Source: Erysipelothrix amsterdamensis
Lineage (GTDB): Bacteria > Bacillota_I > Bacilli_A > Erysipelotrichales > Erysipelotrichaceae
Direction of reading: 5' to 3'
NCBI RefSeq assembly: GCF_940143175.1
Contig: NZ_OW659496.1
Location: 124,001 to 188,000, forward strand
Length of the DNA: 64,000 nucleotides
Part shown: positions 32,589 to 37,740 of the stretch, one piece after another
Layout: each line of letters opens with the position of its first letter
How positions within the stretch are numbered: the first letter of the stretch is position 1
Made by a program: the position numbers and the translations under genes
Notes under the pieces: model-generated
The model's database searches: none
What the model was told of the DNA's origin: nothing
Seen by the model: the letters and a program-made list of their open reading frames with translations, nothing else

Positions 32589-33164
32589 GTGGGTTACGAA
32601 ATAAAGGAATTAAATTATGAGGCGTTCATTCCCATCTACAACAATTTTATGGTCAATGATTTCCCAGATGATGAATTAAGATCATTACACAGTATAAAAA
32701 GAATGTTTAGAGATGGACGTTACTCTGTTTTAGTTATGGTTGAAGATGATGTACTTCTTGCTTACGCAAACTTTATCACTGATGAAGAAGGGCGCGTTGC
32801 GCTCCTTGATTACTATGCTGTGACGCAAGCCAGACGTGGTCAAGGGATTGGGACACTGTTCTTACAAAAAATACGAGAAACCCTTGATGTTGATGGATTA
32901 TTGATCGAGAGTGAAAGACCCGATAAAGCTGAGAGCGAAGAAGATCGCATTATTCGCACAAAACGCATTGGTTTTTACGAACAAAATGACTCCGTAGTTA
33001 CAGAATATACTTGGGAAGCCTATGGTGTTATCTATAATTTATTATATCTACCAATTGGTAAAGACGTTGAGAATGTAGATGTTGGATTCAAAATTAAAGA
33101 AATGTATGGATTTACCCTACCAAAATCATTATTAGAAAAGTACACAAAATTGTATATCGAATAA
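32589..33164 (+). CDS. GNAT family N-acetyltransferase
   Basis: An acetyltransferase of about 190 residues. The acetyl-CoA site is in TQARRGQGIGTLFLQKIRE (motif A, RxGxG type), preceded by the strand VALLDYYAV. The second half keeps a FYEQND block. The substrate cannot be told. Two starts are possible: ATG 32568 has no ribosome site and sits close to a -10-like TGATATAC, while GTG 32589 has AGAAGGTG six bases upstream. I prefer the GTG. The gene is monocistronic with its own bidirectional terminator. Confidence 0.82.
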   Translation: MGYEIKELNYEAFIPIYNNFMVNDFPDDELRSLHSIKRMFRDGRYSVLVMVEDDVLLAYANFITDEEGRVALLDYYAVTQARRGQGIGTLFLQKIRETLDVDGLLIESERPDKAESEEDRIIRTKRIGFYEQNDSVVTEYTWEAYGVIYNLLYLPIGKDVENVDVGFKIKEMYGFTLPKSLLEKYTKLYIE

Positions 33165-33197
33165 AAAAGAATCTCGAGATTATCGAGATTCTTTTTT
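33163..33197. terminator. Bidirectional terminator
   Basis: GAATCTCGA (33169-33177) pairs with TCGAGATTC (33183-33191), with A6 and T6 flanks. It serves the GNAT gene and the convergent panT-coa operon. Confidence 0.92.
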
Positions 33198-33810
33198 ATT
33201 TTCTTCGTATTTTATAAAGTGCTTTAGTAATGGGAATTGTAATCAGTGTGGATACAATAGCTTCTGGAATCCCATTAATGACTATTACGCTAAGCATTGC
33301 TTTAGTTACCGCTAAACCTTCAATACCCCGTGCCGAACCGTAGGCATCTTTAAAGAGCAAATAGATGAGTCCCATAACTAAAATAGTATTCGTCATTGAA
33401 CCGATAAAACCGGCTAAACCAAGACGAATAGAGTCCTTTTTAATAAACTCACTCTTTACAATATAGTAAGGAACAATCCCAACCAAGATTCGAGGGAGTA
33501 GTGCAATGATTAAAGCAAACGGACTTCCAGACGTCGTTCCAATAACTGGCACAAGAGGTGAAAAGGCGAAAGATAATATAGATGGGCTGATTGTATTATT
33601 TATGATGGAGTTTATTCCAAAAATTATGCCTAATCCAGCGCCTGCTGTTGGTCCTAAGATAATCGAACCGATGATAACTGGGATGTGGACAATTGTAGCT
33701 TTGATAAAGCCAAGATGTATAAAACCAAGTGGCGTTACCGAAAGTAAGATAATAATTGCGGCAAATAGGGTAAAGAGTGTATAGTTTAAAGTTTTCTTTT
33801 TAGTTTTCAT
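33196..33810 (-). CDS. panT: ECF transporter S component, probable pantothenate transporter PanT
   Basis: A 204-residue membrane protein with about six hydrophobic segments and the ECF S-component pattern. KATIVHIPVIIGSIILGPTAGAGLG in the second and third segments and FAFSPLVP match PanT-type substrate-binding subunits. It would work with the shared EcfA/A'/T energising module, which is not in this window. Specificity for pantothenate is inferred from resemblance to PanT and from its place at the end of the coaB-coaC-coaX operon. AAAGGA lies 7 bases before the ATG, and its start overlaps the coaX end by 11 bp. Confidence 0.86.
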   Translation of the reverse strand: MKTKKKTLNYTLFTLFAAIIILLSVTPLGFIHLGFIKATIVHIPVIIGSIILGPTAGAGLGIIFGINSIINNTISPSILSFAFSPLVPVIGTTSGSPFALIIALLPRILVGIVPYYIVKSEFIKKDSIRLGLAGFIGSMTNTILVMGLIYLLFKDAYGSARGIEGLAVTKAMLSVIVINGIPEAIVSTLITIPITKALYKIRRK

Positions 33811-34555
33811 AAGTAAGTCCTTTTTGTGTCCACCATGTTAGGAGGCCTTGTAGTAATAAATCAGGTTGGAAATTCCACGAGCCATTACATAACGGTAAAA
33901 TTGCTTTGGAATTACCACCCGTGACAACAAACGTTGTATTCGGATAGTCTTGAGATATGAGTTCACGATAGTTTTTTAAAACGGATGCGGTGCCAAACAG
34001 AGCACCAGATAATATATTTTGCTCTGTATCTAATCCTAAATAATGCGGTGTATCATTAAGATTAATGGTAGGTAGAAGTCCTGTTTTTTCTCCAAGGACA
34101 CTTAAGCCAAGACGAACACCAGGCATAATGGCACCCCCTTTAAATTGATTGTCTGAGAGCACATTGACCGTTGTGGCAGTCCCTAAATCAAAAACTGCAA
34201 TATTTCCTCCGTAAAGTTCTTTTGCGGCGTACAGAGCGATAATACGGTCCATTCCCAGCTTGCCGTAAGGGTAAAGAGAAAAGTCTATCTCAAAATCATC
34301 ACCGTGATCTAATACTTTCGCATTTAACTTGAAATAAGAATCCATCGAACATTTAATTAATTGTGTCTTATCAGGCCTAACGGATGCGATAACACAAGCA
34401 TCAATGTGTTCGTGTCGATTTTGAACTTCAAAATACTTTAAAAAATCATTTTGTGTTTGGTACGCATGAGTTGGGATTGTAAACTGATCAATCAATTCGT
34501 TATCCCCAAATCCAAATGCAGTATTGGTATTACCGATATTAATTACACAAATCAT
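33800..34555 (-). CDS. coaX: Type III pantothenate kinase CoaX
   Basis: A 251-residue ASKHA-fold kinase for the first step of CoA synthesis. Family blocks: INIGNTNTAFG at the N-terminus, LGMDRIIALYAA, VFDLGTATTVNVL with the catalytic-type Asp, and GGAIMPGVRLGLSVLGEKTGLLP. The N-terminal phosphate loop normally reads DxGNT; here the Asp is Asn6 (codon AAT). That may lower activity or mark a lineage variant. The start overlaps the stop of coaC (ATGA). Length is normal. Confidence 0.92.
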   Translation of the reverse strand: MICVINIGNTNTAFGFGDNELIDQFTIPTHAYQTQNDFLKYFEVQNRHEHIDACVIASVRPDKTQLIKCSMDSYFKLNAKVLDHGDDFEIDFSLYPYGKLGMDRIIALYAAKELYGGNIAVFDLGTATTVNVLSDNQFKGGAIMPGVRLGLSVLGEKTGLLPTINLNDTPHYLGLDTEQNILSGALFGTASVLKNYRELISQDYPNTTFVVTGGNSKAILPLCNGSWNFQPDLLLQGLLTWWTQKGLTYEN

Positions 34556-35100
34556 GCTGTAACTCCTTCTAAAGCCGAATCAACATACGCGAGTATTGTT
34601 TCAATTTCTGCGAGTGCGCCTTTACCATAATCTCCACATGCTAATAAGGAACTTCGTGGCTCAACCTCAATCCACCCTCGTTTCCGTAGGATGTCTAAAT
34701 TATCGGTTGTTGCTTCATTTTCATACATATAAGTATTCATTGCGGGAGCAATAAGTCTAGGAATACCATGGACCGCCAATGTAGTTGTCGACAACATATC
34801 ATCCGCAATGCCATGTGCAATTTTTGCGATGATGTTTGCAGTTGCAGGTGCTATCAGAAGCAAGTCTGCAGACTTAACTAAATCAATGTGCATGATTTTA
34901 TTTGGATCATCTTCATTTAAGACATTATAATGAACAGGATTTTTAGTCAGTGATTGCAATGTAAGTGGGGTAATAAATGCTTGTGCAGAATGGGTCATAA
35001 TCACATGAACCGTATAACCTCTTTTTGTGAGTTCATTGGCTAAATCAGCAGATTTATAAGCTGAAATACTACCACTGACACCTAATAGAATTGTTTTCAT
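34552..35100 (-). CDS. coaC: Phosphopantothenoylcysteine decarboxylase CoaC
   Basis: A 182-residue flavoprotein that decarboxylates 4'-phosphopantothenoylcysteine. N-terminal LLGVSGSISAYKSADLANELTKRG is the flavin-binding start. HIDLVKSADLLLIAPATANIIAKIAHGIADDML contains the active-site His block, and APAMNTYMYENEAT is the PxMNxxMW-type substrate motif. It is separate from CoaB, as in streptococci and enterococci, and is linked by 4-bp overlaps on both sides. Confidence 0.95.
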   Translation of the reverse strand: MKTILLGVSGSISAYKSADLANELTKRGYTVHVIMTHSAQAFITPLTLQSLTKNPVHYNVLNEDDPNKIMHIDLVKSADLLLIAPATANIIAKIAHGIADDMLSTTTLAVHGIPRLIAPAMNTYMYENEATTDNLDILRKRGWIEVEPRSSLLACGDYGKGALAEIETILAYVDSALEGVTA

Positions 35101-35855
35101 ATCGACTCCTGACTCTTTTTATAGAGTATTTGTACAAGTGAAGAAGCAATCTCTTCCTTGGTATGCGCTTGGTGAATCAAACCTGTTTGATCAATAAAGT
35201 AAGCGATGTGTTCATTGTGGTGAATATCTTCTAAACGATTCGCCACGACAAGGTCGCTGCCTGCTTGGCTAATTTGAGAAAAGGCTGCGTTCTTTAGTGA
35301 TTCTAAATTTGTATTGGATAATAATTTAAATCCGACTAGAAAGACATTTGGTTGTTTTGCTTTAAGTTGATTGATGACCTTAGGGGTTTGTTTCAAGGTT
35401 AAAACGAGATTTCTATTCGAAGAAGAAATCTTCGAACGTGTTGGTTCTTTTGAATCCAGTAACGCTTGTTTAATTTCCCCTTTAGACGGTTTAGATGTTT
35501 TCGCTAATAGCGTCTGAATGCTTGCGGTCATGGCTTCAAGTGAAGAGATTGTGTCAACCTCATAATCACTGATTGCCATTGCGTGAATCATGACATCAAA
35601 GGAAACAGAATCAAAAAGTAGTGTAAGAACTTTCGAAACGGAATCCACCGTATCGACCTCATACTGTCTACAGGCTAAACTCGGAAGAGCACTGCCTTTG
35701 GCGTAAACATAATAAACATTCGCACCGGCTTCAATAAAAGCATCTGCAATTTTACTCCCTAGACGACCTGTAGAAGTATTGGTGATGCGTCGTACTGTAT
35801 CTATGGGTTCAGAAGTTCCTCCCGACGTGATACAAACGTTATAATTTGTTTTCAT
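35097..35855 (-). CDS. coaB: Phosphopantothenate-cysteine ligase CoaB
   Basis: A 252-residue ligase joining cysteine to 4'-phosphopantothenate. The N-terminal CITSGGTSEPIDTVRRITNTSTGRLGSKIADAF is the CoaB nucleotide motif; later blocks include FDVMIHAMAISDYEV and VFLVGFKLLSNTN. I chose ATG 35855 since AAAGGA precedes it, three codons inside the longest frame. It begins within the end of the TetR gene (17-bp overlap), so regulator and enzyme are one transcript. Confidence 0.93.
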   Translation of the reverse strand: MKTNYNVCITSGGTSEPIDTVRRITNTSTGRLGSKIADAFIEAGANVYYVYAKGSALPSLACRQYEVDTVDSVSKVLTLLFDSVSFDVMIHAMAISDYEVDTISSLEAMTASIQTLLAKTSKPSKGEIKQALLDSKEPTRSKISSSNRNLVLTLKQTPKVINQLKAKQPNVFLVGFKLLSNTNLESLKNAAFSQISQAGSDLVVANRLEDIHHNEHIAYFIDQTGLIHQAHTKEEIASSLVQILYKKSQESI

Positions 35856-36459
35856 AAGAGACATCCTTTGCTAGAATCATTGCGCGCAGTTGTTTAAACT
35901 GCTCATCTACATTGGCTTCAGTAAGTCCCCCTAAAAGTGAATAGACACTTAAACCCTCGATCATAAACATCATATGATCACGGAGTGCATCAATATTAGG
36001 GTTCACGACATAGTTCTGTTTAACACCTAGAGATAACATCTCTTCAAGTGTATTTCGAATATTATCAACCTGAGCTTCTCTAAAAGCAAAATCCGCTTCC
36101 GATTTATGAGTGAAATGATATTCGTACATTGCTCGCAACAAACTCTCGCTCATATTAAGCAGTCGCTTCTTTTGTGTTAAGAAATAAGCATCCAACAATT
36201 CCAAAAAATCAACATTCTGATGGACTGAATCACGTATGCCTTCAAATTTACGACGCTCTCGTGACAAGACGACGTCTTTAAAAATTTCTTCTATGGAGCT
36301 GAAATATAGGTATATTCCCCCACGACTAATCTCACATTCCTCGATAATATCTTTCATCGTAACACCGGCATACCCCTTACGACAGAAGACAAGACGTGCT
36401 TTTTCGAGAATAAGTTCATATTTAGCTTTACGCATGGCTTCATTTGAAACACGAGTCAT
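35839..36459 (-). CDS. TetR/AcrR family repressor heading the CoA operon
   Basis: A 206-residue regulator. The N-terminal helix-turn-helix is canonical: ILEKARLVFCRKGYAGVTMKDIIEECEISRGGIYLYFSSIEEIFKDV (about residues 17-63). The C-terminal ligand domain is of unknown specificity. Two inverted repeats just upstream are obvious operator candidates. The gene overlaps coaB, so it probably represses its own operon. A CoA thioester, pantothenate or a lipid precursor could be the ligand; that is inference. Confidence 0.9.
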   Translation of the reverse strand: MTRVSNEAMRKAKYELILEKARLVFCRKGYAGVTMKDIIEECEISRGGIYLYFSSIEEIFKDVVLSRERRKFEGIRDSVHQNVDFLELLDAYFLTQKKRLLNMSESLLRAMYEYHFTHKSEADFAFREAQVDNIRNTLEEMLSLGVKQNYVVNPNIDALRDHMMFMIEGLSVYSLLGGLTEANVDEQFKQLRAMILAKDVSYENKL

Positions 36460-36470
36460 TGAAACACCTC

Positions 36471-36529
36471 ACTTAATGACACTTGTGTCATTTTTCTAAA
36501 TTTATTTTATGACACAGATGTCATTAAGT
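36471..36529 (-). promoter_or_regulatory. Twin palindromic operator for the TetR-coa operon
   Basis: AATGACAC-TT-GTGTCATT (36475-36492) is a perfect 8-bp inverted repeat. ATGACA-CAGA-TGTCAT (36509-36524) repeats the same half-site. The centres are about 33 bp apart, near three helical turns. The outer arms ACTTAATGACA and TGTCATTAAGT also mirror each other across the pair. Confidence 0.85.
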
Positions 36530-36540
36530 CAAGTGTAAAT

Positions 36541-36562
36541 AAAAAAGCCATTAAAATGGCTT
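36541..36562 (-). terminator. Terminator of the minus-strand GNAT gene
   Basis: AAGCCATT/AATGGCTT overlaps the stop codon, and on the minus strand a T-rich tail follows. It lies just ahead of the TetR operators and insulates the coa operon. Confidence 0.85.
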
Positions 36563-37176: not shown

Positions 37177-37740
37177 ATGAATACAATTATAGGACTTGGT
37201 ATTGTACTTGAAGCCTCAGATAAAACAATTGGACAAATTGAAAATATCCTGGATCTCGTGGACAGTTATAAAACGAAAATGGAAATAACACACCCCAAAG
37301 ACGGTGATTATCATGATTGGATTACTGAAACTGTGGATGGAAATATCTATACAACAATCGAAAAACTTGCTTACCGAACATCTTACGCTGATATCGAATT
37401 TAAGATTGGAAACAAGGATGTGGAAACACGCATGAGTATCACCAATGAAACGGATGCATTGGTCGTAAAATTTGATATTGTGGAAGAACATCTGCTACCT
37501 GAAAAGAGTGTAGAACATTTAGAATCAGCAACTCAATTAATGACTAAAGTTTTTGAGATTATTGATCGTAATGTGGAGTACGAGTACTTATTCTGTGACA
37601 ATGAAGCAGAATATCTCTATTCAAAAGAACGCTTACTCGAAGTAGGTCATCAACCCTATGCACTTTTCAAAATGAATGACCGCAATACAGTCTATGCACA
37701 ATGGTACCTTGATGGTTTTACCTTAAGAGGCGCTCATTAA
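37177..37740 (+). CDS. Uncharacterised protein, 187 residues
   Basis: An acidic soluble protein without signal peptide or membrane segment. ATG 37177 has AAAGGAGG seven bases upstream; the longer frame from 37111 has no ribosome site. It contains LEASDKTIGQIENILDLVDSY at the N-terminus and a C-terminal DNEAEYLYSKERLLEVG. I do not recognise a family. It stands alone with a weak terminator after it. Confidence 0.75.
   Translation: MNTIIGLGIVLEASDKTIGQIENILDLVDSYKTKMEITHPKDGDYHDWITETVDGNIYTTIEKLAYRTSYADIEFKIGNKDVETRMSITNETDALVVKFDIVEEHLLPEKSVEHLESATQLMTKVFEIIDRNVEYEYLFCDNEAEYLYSKERLLEVGHQPYALFKMNDRNTVYAQWYLDGFTLRGAH

Follow-up and report, generated by a model that had tools for sequence, protein, structure and literature searches.

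A candidate TetR-family repressor with twin operators heads a pantothenate and CoA operon in Erysipelothrix and relatives across Bacillota

Results

A TetR regulator predicted to govern pantothenate supply and CoA synthesis

In the window (a 64,000-nt stretch of Erysipelothrix amsterdamensis DNA), a tetR gene heads an operon for CoA synthesis and predicted pantothenate import. We consider it highly probable that its product represses its own operon via twin operators and serves specifically to control pantothenate supply and CoA synthesis; that a CoA-type co-repressor takes part is about as likely as not. This proposal builds on what can be read from the DNA: the operon, two predicted operators, the overlap of one of them with the promoter, and the conservation of regulator, sites and targets across Bacillota.

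Five open reading frames (ORFs) on the minus strand, in the order tetR-coaB-coaC-coaX-panT, overlap throughout (tetR/coaB, 26 nt; coaB/coaC, 4 nt; coaC/coaX, 4 nt; coaX/panT, 11 nt), with the first overlap reduced to 17 nt if coaB starts at a better placed ATG at position 35855. Gene families were assigned by Pfam and NCBIfam domain searches. PanT passed the family of ECF S-components (PF12822; 66.8 bits, cut-off 30.7), and its operon context suggests pantothenate as the substrate. CoaB matched PRK06732 (NCBIfam) with an E-value of 1.1e-62, which is under the curated cut-off of that model. An Rfam scan near the operon returned no riboswitch or other known element, the sole match nearby being a tRNA. 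A gene for an Imm64-family immunity protein (37180-37740; Pfam 3.3e-12) adjoins the operon, a neighbourhood kept in other Erysipelothrix.

Table 1 Features of the tetR-coaB-coaC-coaX-panT locus (positions refer to the window)
Feature	Position	Strand	Description
tetR	35839..36459	-	206-aa TetR-family repressor, pantothenate/CoA clade; Pfam TetR_N 1.4e-13
coaB	35097..35864	-	phosphopantothenate-cysteine ligase, likely start 35855; DFP domain 5.4e-32
coaC	34552..35100	-	phosphopantothenoylcysteine decarboxylase; coaC_strep 6e-77
coaX-like	33800..34555	-	type III pantothenate kinase paralogue, motif-1 Asp replaced by Asn; Pan_kinase 3.4e-39
panT	33196..33810	-	ECF S-component, predicted pantothenate importer; ECF_trnsprt 3.1e-18
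Distal predicted operator	36509..36524	-	ATGACATCTGTGTCAT (ATGACACAGATGTCAT); exact palindrome, in -35/-10 spacer, kept upstream of orthologues
Proximal predicted operator	36476..36491	-	ATGACACAAGTGTCAT (ATGACACTTGTGTCAT); exact palindrome, kept upstream of orthologues
Promoter, sigma-A type	36504..36532	-	TTGACT-17-TAAAAT overlapping distal operator; top promoter-like match of region, 10/12
Terminator	33159..33201	.	19-pair stem and T-run at operon end; inverted repeat shared with convergent GNAT gene
Terminator-like hairpin and T-run	36545..36562	-	ends upstream GNAT gene, parts GNAT from tetR promoter

The regulator carries the TetR_N DNA-binding domain (50.8 bits, Pfam cut-off 24) and is the most constrained gene product of the operon (pN/pS 0.08). 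It fell short of the named NCBIfam TetR equivalogs, with best scores of 39.7 bits against 150 (ScbR) and 29.9 against 200 (FadR). A structure model (pLDDT 89.7) was all-helical, with nine helices, as in the TetR/AcrR family. Searching with this model returned Bacillus subtilis YfiR as the top structural match (TM 0.74), and among generic TetR folds only, with no hint of a ligand.

Twin palindromes flank and fill the tetR promoter

Upstream of tetR lie two exact copies of ATGACA-N4-TGTCAT, 33 bp apart from centre to centre, or ~3.1 helical turns. The distal copy fills the 17-bp spacer between the promoter hexamers, while the proximal copy follows the promoter and precedes the ribosome-binding site, such that the locus displays the TetR-family trait of a palindromic operator overlapping the promoter of the regulated genes. 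The window holds these two exact copies as compared to a mean of 0.017 per shuffle in 60 dinucleotide shuffles, and they are the only exact copies in the whole 1.9 Mb genome. Allowing one mismatch returned 17 sites, of which two are intergenic, beside apparent transporter genes, and 15 lie within ORFs; considered as further regulon members, these sites were rejected as chance occurrences. A possible third operator overlapping the start of tetR (36444-36459) is degenerate, with three mismatches at ~32-33 bp spacing, and was discarded as well, since E. tonsillarum has not kept it.

Much of this had been anticipated in an earlier note on the same DNA. The end-to-end overlap of the five genes that it described is borne out by the ORF calls, although its span of 35097-36529, which covers coaB, tetR and the operators, leaves out coaC, coaX and panT. 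Its twin palindromes with ATGACA half-sites directly upstream of tetR proved exact, and the genome-wide motif search that it called for found them at tetR and nowhere else. The distance of about three helical turns holds here but is not a conserved property (see below).

The regulator and its sites are conserved across orders

The gene order is the same in E. tonsillarum, whose TetR is 90% identical. More distant relatives (40-54% identity), picked by protein similarity alone and blind to neighbours and motif, turned out to adjoin coaB, coaC, coaX or panT in Enterococcus, Caproiciproducens, C. sporosphaeroides, Anaerocolumna and others. In Clostridia, the orthologue heads coaB-coaC-coaX-panT or subsets thereof; in Enterococcus, tetR is divergent from panT. 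When 246 Lactobacillales genomes were searched with a profile, all ten matches above 195 bits (a count that includes the centre genome) lay beside panT, three of them also with coaB. In the corresponding search of 391 Clostridia genomes, coa genes accompany the match of the centre genome and one further match above 200 bits; the clostridial match at 231 bits adjoins coaB and coaX. None of the matches below 170 bits in either search had a pantothenate/CoA pathway neighbour. In a maximum-likelihood tree, all CoA-linked TetRs formed one clade (support 97/87), comprising proteins from Erysipelothrix, Enterococcus, other Lactobacillales and Clostridia, and panT or coaB/coaC/coaX adjoins tetR in every clade member examined.

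The predicted operators follow the same distribution. TGACA-N4-TGTCA occurs within 150 bp upstream of tetR in 21 of 23 loci (expected 0.01) and twice in 17 of the 23 (expected 0.00), although not all of these loci are independent. The 38 sites yield AATGACAYNNRTGTCATT, with a C or T following ATGACA in every one of them, a position that the operator search did not impose. Two loci deviate: G845 is without the standard site within 150 bp and carries a variant, AGACA-N4-TGTCT, and at L105 the site lies farther upstream, nearer panT. Within 13 carrier genomes the Y-NN-R form of the operator is confined to the tetR locus, with one exception (G558). The overlap with the promoter is likewise conserved: the distal site sits in a 17-18 bp -35/-10 spacer in Erysipelothrix and most Clostridia, and in Lactobacillales a site forms the -35 element of the panT promoter. 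The two operators stand 33 bp apart in Erysipelothrix and anywhere from 25 to 46 bp apart elsewhere, so that conservation extends neither to a fixed helical phase nor to cooperativity.

Since one-mismatch sites are scattered through the genome, the palindromes and the TetR could in principle serve other genes and adjoin the operon by chance. We consider this extremely improbable, given that 15 of the 17 such sites lie inside ORFs and that the strong sites, the regulator clade and the targets are co-conserved.

A search for the twin-operator pattern across 392 genomes of the class returned seven matches, four in Erysipelothrix and three at other TetR genes upstream of ABC transporter genes. At L070, L075 and L076, a different TetR gene has twin operators of the ATGACA-N4-TGTCAT type and is followed by ABC transporter genes, and at L120 (1444-1486) the same pair of operators accompanies a less closely related TetR ahead of a gene for a CPBP-type membrane protease. 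The motif alone is thus not specific, being common to several TetR branches.

Pantothenate supply and conversion as the common target

Across all loci, the shared target appears to be the supply of pantothenate, its conversion to CoA, or both. In Lactobacillales, it is mostly panT that falls under predicted TetR control. In a clostridial metagenome-assembled genome (MAG; locus L047, 804-3051), panB, panC and panD are divergent from tetR-coaB-coaC-coaX with twin operators between them (panC was identified by Pfam, panB and panD were recognised from sequence), such that genes for pantothenate synthesis seem to stand in place of panT import. With regulator clade, operators and target genes conserved together, the earlier note's proposal that pantothenate uptake and CoA synthesis have a TetR control of their own is strongly supported at the level of sequence.

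The operon coaX belongs to a separate paralogous clade

The operon CoaX is a clear member of its family (Pan_kinase, 135.3 bits, cut-off 24.7; TIGR00671, 139 against 58) and has the GxDR and DxGTA motifs (as GMDR and DLGTAT), but its motif 1 reads NIGNT instead of DxGNT. Asn or Ser replaces the motif-1 Asp in 11 of 12 operon copies, with GxDR and DxGTA retained, and the operon copies form a clade of their own (support 99/99). Most carriers with an operon coaX also encode, outside the operon, another type III pantothenate kinase with a higher Pfam score; in the present genome, it lies at C1:233871-234458. Separate copies with a readable N-terminus all retain the motif-1 Asp; the Arg of GADR is gone from those whose genome also has an operon copy. 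In the seven genomes in which both copies were read, the loss is reciprocal: the operon copy is without the motif-1 Asp and the separate copy without the GADR Arg. Both residues are present in the single-copy genomes G554 and G557, the exception being G845, whose single coaX has Ser in motif 1.

The operon coaX may therefore not be the plain working kinase. Purifying selection on it is close to that on coaC (pN/pS 0.19 versus 0.20), which, together with the separate clade and the loss in motif 1, suggests a maintained paralogue of probably altered activity. It might have been repurposed under TetR control, either to sense a metabolite or to make up half of a heteromeric pantothenate kinase, a tentative idea that we regard as rather unlikely; in the type III kinase fold, each active site draws its residues from a single subunit, which argues against simple complementation. 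At two loci from the same genus group (L138 and L066, in G178 and G185), coaB-coaC-coaX-panT occurs without a TetR gene, and motif 1 of coaX there has Ser.

A model for repression and its likely ligand

From this arrangement we infer that TetR binds DNA and represses, what kind of ligand it has and which way that ligand acts, as follows. One TetR dimer would bind each ATGACAYNNRTGTCAT operator. On the distal operator, between -35 and -10, TetR would block RNA polymerase, and on the proximal operator it would add repression downstream of the start, with tetR-coaB-coaC-coaX-panT being repressed as one unit. Abundant CoA or a late metabolite of its pathway would hold the repressor on the DNA, whereas falling CoA would lift repression and thereby raise the import and conversion of pantothenate. 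An end product of the CoA pathway acting as co-repressor is the best-fitting ligand model, to which we give roughly even chances; in most TetR proteins the ligand induces and does not co-repress, which counts against it.

The usual TetR logic of ligand-triggered release would instead suit pantothenate or phosphopantothenate as an inducer of the same regulon, such that uptake and conversion rise when the vitamin is available. In line with this, panC was absent from 17 of 18 carriers tested, making them dependent on imported pantothenate. However, we discarded missing panC as a hallmark of carriers, since it is also normal in background relatives, with full-length panC in about 20 of 148 Lactobacillales and 51 of 196 Clostridia. 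Moreover, with the MAG operators lying between tetR-coaB-coaC-coaX and panBCD, induction by pantothenate would render its synthesis self-amplifying. Placing panBCD and the coa genes under the same operators rather favours a signal downstream of pantothenate, that is, a late one such as CoA acting as co-repressor. An inducer of this kind hence appears somewhat unlikely to us.

A CoA ester or CoA itself is a possible ligand. The earlier note had favoured a CoA ester or lipid intermediate on the grounds of fatty-acid import, which would tie CoA supply to that process. TetR repressors that bind acyl-CoA do exist, FadR, AibR and KstR were among the structural matches, and no FabH match over the cut-off was obtained in this genome or in two close relatives from Erysipelothrix. 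Yet those structural matches were weak (TM about 0.6), FabH exceeded the cut-off in 15 of 20 carriers, and among the loci read no fatty-acid or lipid gene lay under these operators. That rationale is hence not supported, and a long-chain acyl-CoA or lipid intermediate as ligand is unlikely.

Many TetRs sense drugs, the nearest solved relative is B. subtilis YfiR, and the remote L120 TetR, whose operators are of this type and which precedes the CPBP-type protease gene, might likewise fit a sensor of foreign compounds, be it a pantothenate analogue or another toxin, with the CoA genes as targets of the response. Since the conserved operon is without an efflux or modification gene and the link to core vitamin genes is stable across orders, we deem such a sensor very unlikely.

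Discussion

What is known about the control of CoA supply is chiefly kinase feedback, its transcriptional side having received little description. Judging from the genomes compared here, a TetR switch appears to be widespread among the pantothenate/CoA genes of Bacillota. Its carriers include Erysipelothrix, enterococci, lactobacilli and anaerobic clostridia, most of which are unable to make vitamin B5. With a repressor devoted to these genes and a defined operator, the sensing of CoA state in such bacteria would become directly accessible, and many unnamed TetR genes would gain a function.

In the open full-text literature, we found no TetR or other named regulator (CoaR, PanR) of pantothenate/CoA genes; papers on RegPrecise, a Lactobacillales regulon paper (PMC3616900) and a B. 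subtilis CoA paper (PMC11487621) held nothing relevant on such a regulator. The RegPrecise database itself lay beyond this search, and a prior description in a database of that type is possible. As far as could be found, the regulon is new, and its kind, a one-component cofactor repressor, is familiar.

The protein shares with TetR-family repressors in general the N-terminal TetR_N helix-turn-helix, an all-helical C-terminal domain and a palindromic operator in its own promoter; what sets it apart are the targets, namely pantothenate transport or synthesis and CoA synthesis, conserved over orders. Its nearest solved relative both by sequence profile (1.9e-26) and by fold is B. subtilis YfiR (PDB 1rkt), which is about 24% identical in the structural alignment and for which we know of no CoA link. 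FadR, KstR and AibR share the TetR fold and have CoA thioesters as ligands, but their targets are lipid or acyl catabolic genes and their structural similarity to the present TetR is weak. PanT and coaB/coaC/coaX are ordinary parts of pantothenate salvage, from which the operon coaX differs in its separate clade without the motif-1 Asp. A parallel is offered by BioQ, which represses biotin genes in actinobacteria: it too is a TetR that governs a vitamin pathway including transport, as predicted for the present protein, with another vitamin, another phylum and another branch of the protein family involved.
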